DNA of 60,778 nt, from positions 1-60,778 of the forward strand of contig JAUYBJ010000269.1 in assembly GCA_030693155.1 (NCBI GenBank). The letters are read 5' to 3'. The notes beneath the pieces are model-generated. The model saw only the letters and a program-made list of their open reading frames with translations, was not told where the DNA came from and did not search any database. Shown here piece after piece: positions 52,570 through 56,338 of the stretch. Position 1 is the first letter of the stretch. The number at the start of each line of letters is the position of its first letter. This DNA comes from Methylococcales bacterium. GTDB lineage: Bacteria > Pseudomonadota > Gammaproteobacteria > Methylococcales > Methylomonadaceae. A program made the position numbers and the translations under genes.

Positions 52570-52586
52570 CATTAGGTCTTTTGACA

Positions 52587-52961
52587 ATGAGACATCGTAA
52601 ATCTGGTAGAAAATTTAACATGAATAGCAGCCACCGTAAGGCTCTATTCAGTAACATGGCAAGTTCATTGTTTAAACATGAACTTATTAGAACGACTTTA
52701 CCAAAAGCTAAAGAATTAAGAAGCTTTGCTGAGCCGTTAATCACTTTATCTAAAGAAGATAATGTGGCTAAAAGACGTTTAGCGTTTGCTAGACTGCGTG
52801 ACCGTGAAGTTGTCACTAAACTGTTCAATGAGCTGGGTCCACGTTACAAAAATAGAGCAGGCGGCTATTTGCGTATCATGAAATGCGGCTTTAAAACAGG
52901 TGATAATGCACCGATGGCGTATGTCGAGCTAGTTGATAGACCTGAAGCCAGCGCGGAATAA
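52587..52961 (+). CDS. rplQ: 50S ribosomal protein L17
   Basis: L17 lies near the tunnel exit. From the ATG at 52587 it has 124 residues and starts [20 protein letters not shown], followed by [24 protein letters not shown] two codons upstream is unlikely. It ends the ribosomal-protein block, 25 bases before an intrinsic terminator. Confidence 0.98.
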
Positions 52962-53121: not shown

Positions 53122-53448
53122 ATGAAATCAATGGAATACGCCATTCGTGAAGAAAATATAAATACTGGCAATGACCCATTTTCTGATCTGGTACTGAAAG
53201 AATCTAAACTTTCTCCAAATAGATTAGTTTATCGGAATGATGATAATGGCGTTTGGTTATATCAAGCGAATTGTTTAGAGTTTATGGATGTACTTATAGC
53301 CAAATTTCCACAAGGTAAATTTGATATGATTTTTGCCGACCCGCCTTATTTTTTATCAAATGGAGGTATTAGTTGCCAAGCGGGAAAAATGGTCAGTGTG
53401 CATAAAGGTGATTGGGATAAATCACGCAGTGCGGAAGTTAATCATTAG
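53122..53448 (+). pseudogene. truncated DNA methyltransferase (motif IV part only)
   Basis: The 108-residue frame resembles the N-terminal part of beta-type DNA methyltransferases: NRLVYRNDDNGVWLYQANCL leads to the catalytic motif FDMIFADPPYFLSNGG and VSVHKGDWDKS. The reading then breaks off after about residue 100 (SRSAEVNH stop), where intact relatives continue for some 200 residues with the substrate-binding part and the SAM-binding FxGxG motif. Without motif I it should be inactive. It is the first part of an eroded restriction-modification locus that starts 113 bases after the rplQ terminator. Confidence 0.75.
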
Positions 53449-53455
53449 TATCTCT

Positions 53456-54199
53456 ATGAAACAAAACGAAGCCGTTATTTTGACATTAGAAAAGTTAGGT
53501 GGAGTTGCAACACTTGGGCAATTAAATCAGGAAACTTTAAAAATAAAAGAATGCGCTTGGAAAACTAAAACACCTTTTGCTAGTATTCGTAGAATTGTTC
53601 AATTAGATAAAAATATATACAAAATCAAGGCTGGTCTTTATGGCTTAGAAAAATTTAGAGCAGAAATAGAGAGTCGTGGGATAATTGCTGAAACTGAAAA
53701 AAATAAAAATTCCCAAGAAGTTATTGAATCAAATCATTCTTATTTTCAAGGATTGCTGTTAATAGTTGGTAATTTAAAAGGTTTAAATACTTTTGTACCA
53801 AATCAAGATAAAAATAAAAAATTTATTGATAAAAATTTAGGTGAAATAAGAACACTAAGTATTCTTCCTGAGTATTCTTTTCCCTCTATAGTTAAAAGAA
53901 GCTCAACCATTGATGTTATCTGGTTTAACGAAAGAAATATGCCTCATTCTTTCTTTGAGGTAGAGCATTCCACAGACATTCAAAATTCTCTTTTAAAATT
54001 CAATGACCTGCAAGATTTTCATTCGAGAATGGTAATAGTTGCCGATGTAGTCAGAAAACAAGAGTATTTGACGAAAATAAAATACTCATCATTCAAAGAT
54101 TTGTCAGCTAAAAATAGAGTTTCATTTTTAGATTACGAAGCATTAAACTATCAATATGAAAATATTGTGAAGCAAAAACCATCTGACTTTATTTTATAA
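53456..54199 (+). CDS. Winged-helix protein with nuclease-like C-terminal domain, function unknown
   Basis: The ATG at 53456, seven bases after the methyltransferase stop, gives 247 residues. Residues 1-75 look like a winged-helix domain (KQNEAVILTLEKLGGVATLG, then ASIRRIVQLDKNIYKIKAGL-like strand with LYGLEKF), as found at the N-terminus of some restriction-related proteins. Residues 145-230 contain STIDVIWFNERNMPHSFFEV followed by EHSTDIQNSLLKF; the D...E-V-E spacing resembles the PD-(D/E)xK nuclease core with Glu where Lys is usual. It is very AT-rich compared with the ribosomal genes. It is either a restriction-related nuclease or a DNA-binding regulator; I cannot name it. Confidence 0.6.
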   Translation: MKQNEAVILTLEKLGGVATLGQLNQETLKIKECAWKTKTPFASIRRIVQLDKNIYKIKAGLYGLEKFRAEIESRGIIAETEKNKNSQEVIESNHSYFQGLLLIVGNLKGLNTFVPNQDKNKKFIDKNLGEIRTLSILPEYSFPSIVKRSSTIDVIWFNERNMPHSFFEVEHSTDIQNSLLKFNDLQDFHSRMVIVADVVRKQEYLTKIKYSSFKDLSAKNRVSFLDYEALNYQYENIVKQKPSDFIL

Positions 54200-54201
54200 A
54201 A

Positions 54202-54432
54202 ATGAAAAATATCACGTTAAGCGATGAAAACTTAAAAGACATAAAAATAGTATTTGAATATCTATTAGATTTAGAAAGAAAATCGTATGAAGAGTATTGT
54301 ATGGATTTAATAGATGAAAATTGTGACAACTATGATTTTATATTAAATAAAGATTTTTATAACAAACCAGAAATAAATCATATTTATGCGTTTGCGCGAA
54401 GAGCAAAAGATGCAATTGATGGTAACTCGTAA
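54202..54432 (+). CDS. Small acidic protein, function unknown
   Basis: This 76-residue frame begins two bases after the upstream gene, so the two are probably translated together. The protein is acidic and helical in appearance (KNITLSDENLKDIKIVFEYL; many Asp and Glu), with no membrane segment or known motif. A partner or inhibitor of the preceding nuclease-like protein is one possibility, based only on the pairing and charge. Confidence 0.5.
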   Translation: MKNITLSDENLKDIKIVFEYLLDLERKSYEEYCMDLIDENCDNYDFILNKDFYNKPEINHIYAFARRAKDAIDGNS

Positions 54433-54762
54433 TTAAAATTCAATTGGAAAGCTATTGTATCAAAAAGACTTTTACCAGATGACGCGCTATTAGTCATAGT
54501 AAGAGAAACTCTGTTTATAATCGAGGTTAAATATCAACAAGTCGCTGGTTCGGTGGATGAAAAATTACAAACCTGTGATTTTAAACGCAAGCAATATCAA
54601 AAATTATTGATTACCCTAGAGTTAAAAGTCGAATATGTCTATGTGTTAAATGATTGGTTTAAAAAACCTGAATATAAAGATGTTCTCGATTATATAAACA
54701 GCGTCAACTGTCATTATAAGTTCGGTAAGTTACCGCTTGCGTGGCTTGGGTTGCCTGAATAG
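54433..54762 (+). pseudogene. C-terminal remnant of a restriction endonuclease-like gene
   Basis: From 54433 the frame is open for 109 residues without a normal start; an internal GTG at 54553 is the only late option. It contains ALLVIVRETLFIIEVKYQQV, whose I-I-E-V-K is the E-x-K part of a PD-(D/E)xK nuclease core, then AGSVDEKLQTCDFKRKQYQK, a Tyr-rich strand (VEYVYVLNDWF) and a last FGKLPLAWLGLP. This looks like the second half of a type II restriction endonuclease whose first half is gone. It is in the frame of the preceding small gene but separated from it by a stop. Confidence 0.65.
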
Positions 54763-54799: not shown

Positions 54800-56338
54800 C
54801 TAAGGCGCAGCAATTTCTTCACCCGTTTGTACCACTGGTTGATCCGCCATCAGCCGATTCAGCCACACCTCCGCTGTTTTTTGATTTATTCTCAGCACCT
54901 TATTCGGCATAAAACCCAGTATCAGAATTAATAAAGCGGGTACGCATAATAATGCCAGTTCGCGCGGACGCAGGTCTTGTGCGTGTTCGACGCTGGTTTG
55001 TGTGATTGCGCCAAAAAAGGCGCGGCGGGTGAATGACAGCATATAGGCGGCACATAATACTGCACCTGCTAGGGCAGTAATGCCTAGGGTAGGGTGGGCG
55101 GTTAATGCGCCGATGATAATTAATAATTCGGCAGGAAAACCGCTGGTTAAGGGTGCGCCCATGCTGGCAAGCATGAATAAAAAATAGAAGGCGGTTAAGC
55201 GCGGCATGACTTTCGCCAGACCACCCAAATGCAGGGCTTCGGTGCTACCTAAACGGTGTTGGATAAAACCAGCTATCAGCATCAAGGAGCTGGCGACCAG
55301 CGTGAAATTAAGCAGTTGAAAAATCGCGCCTTGTAAACCTTGCATATTTAAAGCGGATAAGCCGATGATGACTAAGCCGACATGACTGATACTGGCGTAC
55401 GCCAATAAGCGGCGCAAGTTGGTTTGTTGTAAGGCGATTAACGCGCCATAAATCAAGGTAATTGCGCCCAGAATACCTAATGCCCAGCTATATTGAACGG
55501 CGGCTGAGGGGGCTAGCGGCATGGCAAAACGCAACAAGCCATAAACGCCCAGTTTTAAGCCGACTAATAAAGCGGTGGTGTGTGTCGCGCCTTCCATTGC
55601 GGTGGTCGGTAGCCAAGTGTGGAAGGGGACTAAGGGAGCTTTAACGATAAAACCTAATAAGAGCAAGAAAAAGACGGTGCTTTGTAAGGAATCAGGCAGG
55701 GGTGTTGCTAATAAGGTCGGCAGGCTGAACGATAAGTCGAGCGGAATACTACCACCGACGGCTGTTGCGTGATTCATCGACAAAATGACGATAGCGAATA
55801 ATAACGGTACGCCGCCAAATAACATAAACAGCGTGTATTTCATCGCCGCGCCGCGCCGCTCTGGCCCTATGCCCCATAAGCTGATTAAAAAGAAAATCGG
55901 TGGCAGGGTCAGTTCCCAGAACAGAAAGAACAGTACCAAATCCAGTGCGCAAAATACGCCCATGGTAATGCCTTCCAACGCTAATAACAGGGCGAAATGC
56001 AGGCGCGACAGGTGTTGTATGGAATTCCATGAGGCGATAATCGCCATTAGTGTGACTAAGGCGGATAAGGGCATAAATAGTACGGAAATGCCATCTATGC
56101 CGAGCAGAAATTCAATGTGTAAACTGGGTATCCAATCGCTACGTTCTAATAGTTGAAAATCGCCATTATTACTGTGAAATAACGCCACTACTGATAAGGC
56201 GGCAATAAGTTCAATGCTGGCAAAAGTGAGTGCGGTTTTTTTAGCTAACTGGCTGTTGCCGCATAGCACTGTCATCAACGCGCCCAATAACGGCAGAAAA
56301 ATCAGCAGACTTAATATCGGAAAATGGCTTTCATTCAT
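54800..56338 (-). CDS. NuoM-like proton-conducting membrane subunit (second M)
   Basis: The start at 56338 (MNESHFPILS) gives 512 residues; an ATG seven codons upstream lies inside the preceding gene. About 14 membrane helices are visible. Key charged residues of complex I antiporter-like subunits are kept: Glu142 in FLFWELTLPP, Lys233 in IVKAPLVPFHTWLP and Lys262 in GLKLGVYGLLRF. It overlaps the upstream M-like gene by eight bases. No nuoA-K, nuoN or peripheral-arm genes occur in the window, so it probably belongs to a separate ion-translocating complex and not to ordinary complex I. Confidence 0.82.
   Translation of the reverse strand: MNESHFPILSLLIFLPLLGALMTVLCGNSQLAKKTALTFASIELIAALSVVALFHSNNGDFQLLERSDWIPSLHIEFLLGIDGISVLFMPLSALVTLMAIIASWNSIQHLSRLHFALLLALEGITMGVFCALDLVLFFLFWELTLPPIFFLISLWGIGPERRGAAMKYTLFMLFGGVPLLFAIVILSMNHATAVGGSIPLDLSFSLPTLLATPLPDSLQSTVFFLLLLGFIVKAPLVPFHTWLPTTAMEGATHTTALLVGLKLGVYGLLRFAMPLAPSAAVQYSWALGILGAITLIYGALIALQQTNLRRLLAYASISHVGLVIIGLSALNMQGLQGAIFQLLNFTLVASSLMLIAGFIQHRLGSTEALHLGGLAKVMPRLTAFYFLFMLASMGAPLTSGFPAELLIIIGALTAHPTLGITALAGAVLCAAYMLSFTRRAFFGAITQTSVEHAQDLRPRELALLCVPALLILILGFMPNKVLRINQKTAEVWLNRLMADQPVVQTGEEIAAP

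Follow-up and report, generated by a model that had tools for sequence, protein, structure and literature searches.

DpnI and Neisseria Drg represent the known case in which a bacterial host abandons GATC methylation and cuts methylated DNA instead. Here we analyse a locus of a Methylococcales bacterium in which a gene for a 247-residue protein, followed by a gene for a 76-residue protein, stands between a piece of a DpnA-like methyltransferase gene and a piece of a restriction endonuclease gene. The locus lies on contig JAUYBJ010000269.1 (assembly GCA_030693155.1), all 60,778 nucleotides of which we refer to as the window; among the genomes compared here it is contig C115 of genome G000. An original prediction made from this DNA had seen in the two genes an intact pair that may have replaced the middle of an ancestral restriction-modification system and may itself be a defence or toxin-inhibitor unit. 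This interpretation is partly supported, in that the replacement stands and the toxin-inhibitor unit does not.

According to the excerpts of PMC4269198 and PMC516771 used here, drg encodes a DpnI-like enzyme for N6-methylated GATC (Gm6ATC) and is inserted in dam; among 84 meningococci, 23 were dam+/drg-, 61 were dam-/drg+ and none had both (PMC516771). The methyl-directed reading of the 247-residue protein that we propose below is paralleled by this precedent. Like DpnI and Drg (PF06044 plus PF17726), the protein is associated with broken GATC methyltransferase genes and is predicted to join a winged helix to a PD-(D/E)XK-type nuclease; in congeneric genomes it and DpnI fill the same slot. However, the 247-residue family matches neither of these Pfam families, its winged helix comes first, in reversed order, and its dependence on Gm6ATC is only presumed.

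Two further systems are close. The winged-helix (wH) fusion endonucleases of Helbrecht et al. 2024, in the part of the text drawn on (PMC11037411), comprise PD-(D/E)XK-wH, PUA-wH-HNH, wH-HNH, wH-GIY-YIG and PLD-wH proteins, and two characterised PD-(D/E)XK-wH enzymes are about 58% identical to DpnI. They likewise join a winged helix to a nuclease domain and mostly lack an intact neighbouring methyltransferase, whereas the order wH-PD-(D/E)XK is not among the classes named in that part; the text of the paper makes no mention of wH-PD, Bacteroides, Treponema, Fusobacterium or Leptotrichia. The DpnII-type locus (dpnM, dpnA, dpnB; Lactococcus pSRQ700) shares the dpnA-type left flank with the window, a DpnII remnant is present in the congeneric genome G002, and DpnI/DpnII alternation is a precedent for exchange. 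It differs in that dpnA is broken in the window and the right flank is another PD-(D/E)XK enzyme, of about 178 residues when intact. An excerpt of PMC3573125 describes DpnM and DpnII of the DpnII locus, together with DpnA as a methylase of single-stranded DNA.

We propose that the 247-residue protein is probably a methyl-directed GATC restriction endonuclease, DpnI-like in action and outside the DpnI family, that spreads by overwriting GATC methylases; the gene content, the junctions, the exchange with DpnI, the predicted fold and the purifying selection are what we see, and its cutting, its need for the methyl group and GATC as its site are what we infer. In the proposed mechanism, the N-terminal winged helix would read N6-methyladenine in GATC and the C-terminal PD-(D/E)XK-like domain (D153, E168, E170) would cut the DNA. 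The enzyme would need no partner methyltransferase and would need instead a host without GATC methylation, which would be lost through the gene landing on dpnA, in the window, or on dam, elsewhere. Invading methylated DNA would be destroyed while the host, having lost its own methylase, would be safe, and the polarity of the locus would be reversed, its target changing from unmethylated to methylated GATC. The small gene downstream would be an accessory of the locus.

On balance, and with a little less assurance, we also lean towards a wider view, in which the protein represents a new Gm6ATC endonuclease family, with a winged helix before PD-(D/E)XK and no sequence match to DpnI, that reached at least seven bacterial phyla and an archaeal plasmid by overwriting dam and dpnA. 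The dpn locus would then be a general exchange slot for unrelated methyl-directed nucleases (DpnI, a wH-HNH protein and this family), each of which takes the place of the methylase and turns the polarity of restriction around. If true, a separate family has arrived at the DpnI solution, legible from the scars in dam and dpnA. Its members are then predicted to be toxic in dam+ but not dam- Escherichia coli K-12, could provide a new reagent for methylated GATC and, more speculatively, might be one cause of the barrier that plasmids grown in E. coli meet in certain Bacteroidales, treponemes and fusobacteria.

DpnI occupies the same slot in congeneric genomes

In all four genomes of the window's genus compared at this locus (G000, G001, G002 and G004), a 5' piece of dpnA forms the left flank. 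The left junction was read directly on the DNA of each, and the dpnA cut point of the window recurs in G001 and G002. In G004 the piece, read by eye on DNA without a profile, is reduced to about 50 bases adjoining a run of N, and homology stops a few codons short of where it does in the other three genomes. The slot itself holds the 247-residue protein in G000 and G004 and DpnI in G001 and G002 (PF06044 at 4e-82 and 5.4e-82). On the right, G000 and G001 carry a member of the 76-residue family (a 74-residue homologue in G001) and a remnant of the 178-residue nuclease, while G002 and G004 carry DpnD and a DpnII remnant. Pfam matches identified DpnD in G004 and DpnII in G002, and the counterparts, DpnD in G002 and the DpnII remnant in G004, were recognised by eye in DNA that is very similar. 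Since close relatives carry DpnI at the same spot, we suggest that members of the new family, too, act by destroying foreign DNA that is methylated.

A third nuclease fills the slot in G025, which belongs to another genus of the same family: here a DpnI_C winged helix is fused to HNH, an architecture described previously (PMC11037411, in part). PADLOC assigned this protein to mREase_IV and mREase_II. It has 196 residues (L033:991-1578, reverse strand) and keeps the motif PDNxHIxxKIRQQLQ, and a seemingly degraded copy of the DpnI_C-HNH gene was seen by eye in G005 (L035). In G032, a 34-residue dpnA remnant precedes a homologue of the 247-residue protein and an extended homologue of the 76-residue protein, at 74% and 36% identity; this is the one recurrence of the pair among the genomes searched.

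Predicted fold, active site and selection

Neither Pfam nor NCBIfam gave a credible match to the 247-residue protein. When 29 family members were compared with Pfam, none matched convincingly (best E 0.02); the DpnI catalytic domain (PF06044) was absent from their matches at E up to 1, and the DpnI_C winged helix (PF17726) gave no match. The PADLOC profile REase_II (PDLC03534) matched residues 92-241 at 5.1e-8, indicating similarity in the nuclease domain, although the profile is longer (351 positions) and covers the nuclease half only. An AlphaFold2 model built with 29 natural sequences (predicted local distance difference test, pLDDT, 90.7; predicted template modelling score, pTM, 0.89) places an N-terminal winged helix before a C-terminal restriction-type nuclease domain, the kind of fusion by which winged-helix modification-dependent endonucleases are recognised.

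Structural alignment (VIA-align) gave Z values that were all modest, at 8.0 or less. Residues 1-67 aligned to winged helices with a best Z of 8.0. The C-terminal part aligned to restriction enzymes in the range of 6.9-7.7, with Nt.BspD6I (Z 7.5-7.7, root-mean-square deviation (rmsd) 4.0 over 135-137 residues) ahead of EcoT38I (7.3), BsaWI (7.0) and BstEII (6.9); the aligned ranges started at residues 19-21 or 79-80 and ended at 236-245. Foldseek returned no match in the PDB at E 0.001 or better, and a PDB sequence search with the family profile found nothing credible. The model predicts a PD-(D/E)XK-like fold for the C-terminal domain, and the profile match, the model and the alignments agree with the earlier suggestion that the central gene is nuclease-like, specifically of a restriction-nuclease type. 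D153, E168 and E170 are invariant in all 29 aligned members, and in 30 of 30 when the archaeal member is included; judging from sequence, they form the predicted active site and may be catalytic.

Full-length relatives of the protein occur in related genomes at 87% and 75%, and the ratio of nonsynonymous to synonymous substitution rates (dN/dS) of the window copy is 0.10 in each of three comparisons, so the gene is not a product of chance. Across the four Methylococcaceae copies compared, dN/dS is 0.10-0.16 (five of six pairs were computable), and these copies are under purifying selection. Internal stops were found in 3 of the 81 rows of the family tree. Elsewhere in the window genome, a 415-residue protein (L002:781-2028, contig C52) is 31% identical over about 130 residues to the nuclease domain.

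Distribution of the family and scars in dam and dpnA

A tblastn scan of genome contigs yielded 249 relatives, of which the best 80 (57-87% identity) were kept; locus counts below refer to these 80, where L054 and L067 are genomes G004 and G032 again. Their hosts belong to the Pseudomonadota, Bacteroidota, Planctomycetota, Spirochaetota, Fusobacteriota, Acidobacteriota and Fidelibacterota, and a relative at 45% lies on a Halobacterium plasmid. Phages and viral contigs held no relative. A literature search, with subscription journals, preprints, supplements and REBASE outside its range, found no description of the family, which appears to be an uncharacterised yet widespread group of probable DNA-cutting enzymes.

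GATC methyltransferase genes are disrupted by the family in the window and at many of the loci with a trace of dam or dpnA. A dam trace lies within 3 kb at 23 of the 80 loci, and just one of these, L119, is intact. Of the 22 incomplete copies, 21 lie upstream of the nuclease gene and keep the N-terminal part of Dam, ending at residues 44 to 279; the remaining one (L058) is at a contig edge. The dam piece is 0.7-1.0 kb from the nuclease gene at L114, L115, L116 and L123, and in G389, identified in a separate search, about 84 residues of dam remain in a piece that lies 73 bases upstream of it. A dpnA trace was present within 3 kb at 35 loci, incomplete at 18 and intact-looking at 17. Neither dam nor dpnA is intact within 3 kb at 63 of the 80 loci, in a search that covered these two methyltransferase families. 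Flanks of 1 kb or more upstream and 2 kb or more downstream are available at only 61 loci, so some absences of dam or dpnA reflect contig ends. For comparison, in 295 genomes of the Bacteroidales, the order of G128, each of the 52 places where Dam scores above 200 bits covers model positions 4-252 or more, under a 200-bit filter that favours complete genes.

GATC methylases and GATC sites in host genomes

Fifty host genomes, picked from the 80 and spanning other phyla, were scanned for Dam (TIGR00571) and DpnA. TIGR00571 was above its cut-off in 14, and an intact-looking DpnA was present in 12, always at the nuclease locus. Twenty-seven genomes had neither, including Bacteroides clarus, B. gallinarum and Seramator thermalis, and the number rises to 31 if the over-cut-off but shortened dam genes of G107, G108, G135 and G148 are counted as broken. 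A strong, full-length Dam (>200 bits) was found in 2 of the 50 hosts, G145 (the genome of L119) and G118, compared to 49 of the 295 Bacteroidales genomes (counted by eye). The 247-residue family occurs in 9 of the 295, among them G402 and G217. As a test of mutual exclusion the comparison of Dam in the two samples has low power, given a hand-picked host sample that includes other phyla. Absence of a methylase is likewise not proof, since many hosts are metagenome assemblies and the scan was confined to two families of GATC methylase.

In the window genome, the only hit to the D12 methyltransferase family (PF02086) is of the EcoRV type, sharing 63% identity with the methyltransferase that neighbours EcoRV on pLG13; this gene (L042, contig C28) adjoins a ParA-like gene. 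All six genomes sampled from the window's genus are depleted in GATC (observed/expected 0.21-0.71), as is G032 (0.27), compared to 0.56-1.05 in ten other related genomes (9-101 kb sampled per genome); CCGG and GGCC are likewise depleted, down to 0.00-0.1 in some of the sampled genomes. Because all six genomes of the genus are affected, including carriers of DpnI or Dam, this depletion is not special to the 247-residue gene. We therefore rejected GATC avoidance as the reason why a cutter of unmethylated GATC might be tolerated; 266 GATC sites were counted in 100 kb of the window genome.

Weighing methyl-directed cutting against other explanations

Several observations weigh against a GATC-specific, methyl-directed enzyme. 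In the protein, the motif with which the DpnI winged helix reads N6-methyladenine was not recognised. An hhalign comparison of the 29 members with three DpnI_C sequences found nothing, a weak test given so few sequences, and the structural match of residues 1-67 to the DpnI winged helix (4kyw; Z 7.4, rmsd 2.2 over 64 residues) is tied with many unrelated winged helices. At the loci, a broken methyltransferase beside a restriction gene is not special to methyl-directed enzymes, because an excerpt of PMC3488263 counts 74 restriction genes that are solitary but have methyltransferase pseudogenes in the neighbourhood. Nor are the 80 loci 80 independent events, several being near-identical, and 40 of them have neither a dam nor a dpnA trace within 3 kb. 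At L060 and L061, dam is nearly complete and has lost only its end at the nuclease gene.

The chief difficulty is the intact-looking dpnA beside 17 of the 80 copies. A single rumen Bacteroidales clade accounts for 10 of the 17 and the Planctomycetales for 3, and the tree requires at least 7-8 changes for this dpnA. Relatives in which the protein is a normal component of an intact system would count against the original prediction, and these loci leave some room for such a reading. The clearest exception is L119, where a complete-looking Dam fusion and a DpnA have an intact member of the nuclease family as their neighbour. A single-strand-preferring DpnA, if it behaves as in pneumococcus, need not give full double-strand methylation. 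The strong Dam gene lies elsewhere in the genome in G118 and also in G402, which carries a distant family member; G217 has a full-length, 174-bit Dam-family gene, and the window genome encodes a full-length, 32% identical DpnA relative (contig C63) of unassigned specificity. Finally, genome-wide absence of Dam is weak evidence because most Bacteroidales lack a strong Dam in any case.

Part of this picture would suit a modification-dependent nuclease directed at another mark or sequence, which sits at GATC methyltransferase loci since these are recombination hot spots. Such an enzyme need carry no recognisable DpnI methyl-reading motif, and the 40 loci without a dam or dpnA trace and the hosts that keep Dam or DpnA fit it as well, as does the GATC motif being reported for only about 10% of winged-helix fusion proteins (PMC11037411, in part). 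Yet the allele with which the gene is swapped is DpnI itself, and at many loci dam or dpnA, the two genes searched for there, is cut at the very edge of the nuclease gene, so we regard this explanation as doubtful.

Alternatively, the protein might be an ordinary GATC restriction enzyme partnered with a DpnA-type methyltransferase, the copies without an intact methyltransferase being orphans. This would accommodate the 17 loci with an intact-looking dpnA, most of them in two groups, as well as L131 and L133, where a DpnD-DpnA fusion adjoins the nuclease gene; solitary restriction genes near decayed methyltransferases are, moreover, already known (PMC3488263, in part). In the window, however, the nuclease gene stands without an intact adjoining methyltransferase, the cognate candidate being cut at residue 108 of about 296, and 27 of 50 hosts lack a GATC methyltransferase under the criteria applied here, yet the four Methylococcaceae copies are under purifying selection and internal stops affect just 3 of 81 rows. 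An active enzyme of this kind would cut its own genome at sites as frequent as those counted in the window genome, and we consider it unlikely.

That the gene was recently captured and is unexpressed or decaying, with no present role, is very improbable. It sits in a broken locus and three tree rows contain internal stops, but the low dN/dS values, the open frames and the invariant D153, E168 and E170 speak against it.

The 76-residue partner

No credible match to the 76-residue protein was found in Pfam, NCBIfam or PADLOC, and tblastn against plasmids returned nothing; an AlphaFold2 model from five sequences (pLDDT 70.6) is helical. Homologues follow three nuclease types, namely the 247-residue protein (window and G032), DpnI (G001) and the winged-helix HNH protein (G025), while in G004 the homologue of the 247-residue protein is followed by a DpnD-PcfM protein in place of the 76-residue family. 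At E 1e-4, none of the 321 sampled genomes of the class besides the window's own contained the family. Because its homologues also follow DpnI and the winged-helix HNH protein, the 76-residue protein is not a dedicated inhibitor. A toxin-inhibitor pair, in which it would restrain the nuclease, could draw on the two-base spacing, the small acidic partner and the recurrence in G032, but we rejected it as extremely unlikely, since the family is shared among nuclease types, is exchanged for DpnD and was absent from the other sampled genomes, so that no conserved, dedicated partner of the nuclease emerges.

DpnD lies within 600 bases at 16 of the 80 loci, 13 loci having fewer than 600 bases on one side. 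At L131:5908-6987 and L133:5907-6986, a DpnD-PcfM domain precedes a DpnA-type methyltransferase in one frame of 359 residues behind the nuclease gene, and this DpnD-DpnA fusion is a hint at the role of DpnD. Bacteroides sp. Marseille-P3684 is a carrier of the nuclease gene with such a fusion, intact, next to it.

Flanking pieces and layout of the locus

The four reading frames of the original prediction were confirmed by direct inspection (Table 1), as was the two-base gap between the 247- and 76-residue genes. The AT-richness also holds, the G+C content of the locus being 0.31 and 0.34 in two 1-kb bins, the lowest of the window. To the left lies what we take to be rplQ (52581-52961), and to the right a run of reverse-strand genes, presumably NADH-dehydrogenase-like, begins at 54800, both named from their translations.

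Table 1. Features of the locus in window coordinates.
Feature	Position	Strand	Remarks
DpnA-like N6-adenine methyltransferase gene, 5' piece	53122..53448	+	108 of about 296 residues; cut after ..KGDWDKSRSAEVNH
Left junction	53446..53455	+	dpnA codons AAT CAT (53440-53445) stop, leader of the 247-residue gene starts
247-residue nuclease-type gene (P0001)	53456..54199	+	winged helix ~aa 1-75, PD-(D/E)XK-like domain ~aa 87-240
Predicted active-site codons of the 247-residue gene	53912..53965	+	D153 53912-53914, E168 53957-53959, E170 53963-53965
Gene for 76-residue acidic, predicted helical protein (P0002)	54202..54432	+	occupies the dpnD position of G002/G004
PD-(D/E)XK restriction endonuclease gene, 3' piece	54433..54762	+	last 109 of about 178 residues

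The left piece contains the predicted DPPY motif (DPPYFLSNGG) and indeed lacks the S-adenosylmethionine-binding part: it matches PADLOC MTase_II (PDLC03371) at 2.6e-17 only over profile positions 7-67 of 260, at the start of the profile. The right piece, with its IIEVK motif, matches Pfam PDDEXK_11 (PF20472) at 3.5e-5. The search for complete methyltransferase-nuclease loci in relatives, proposed with the original prediction, was successful. In G672 (L180), a 178-residue relative of the right piece comes immediately after a 296-residue DpnA-like methyltransferase, and in G755 (L182) a 306-residue methyltransferase overlaps a 177-residue nuclease by 4 bases. With these intact two-gene copies, and with junctions that can be read against the congeners, the pair is seen to occupy the position of the central part of an ancestral methyltransferase-nuclease system. 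The copies themselves (L180:1492-2919, reverse strand; L182:446-1896) form a compact restriction-modification system of a DpnA-like methyltransferase and a 177-178 residue PD-(D/E)XK enzyme, which Pfam hardly recognises, PDDEXK_11 being near its cut-off.

The flanks had been called broken, and truncated they are, but neither piece is a visibly neutral relic. dN/dS is 0.09-0.18 for the methyltransferase piece (four of six pairs computable) and 0.06-0.10 for the nuclease piece (three of six). Because both are low, either the truncation is recent, or the flanks were swapped by recombination, or the pieces are still functional.

On Lactococcus pSRQ700 and a Staphylococcus lugdunensis plasmid, relatives of the left methyltransferase have an annotated DNA adenine methylase on one side and a type II restriction endonuclease on the other, which is the layout of the DpnII locus. 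In Neisseria gonorrhoeae, a DpnI-like gene precedes a dpnA with an in-frame stop, directly followed by a relative of the right-hand nuclease piece. An excerpt of PMC4269198 gives drg followed by a 'DPNIIB-like enzyme' in three strains, and the agreeing layout suggests that this is the same gene, a relative of the right-hand piece.

Two further observations concern other genes. The Dam fusion of genome G145 (L177, contig C5, 6052-10304) has a C-terminal region of about 380 residues with a weak HSDR_N match. In G005 (L036:200-1173, contig C26), another decayed nuclease remnant with two internal stops lies beside the window's NADH-dehydrogenase-like gene, and since it adjoins the same gene, an old insertion site is suggested there.

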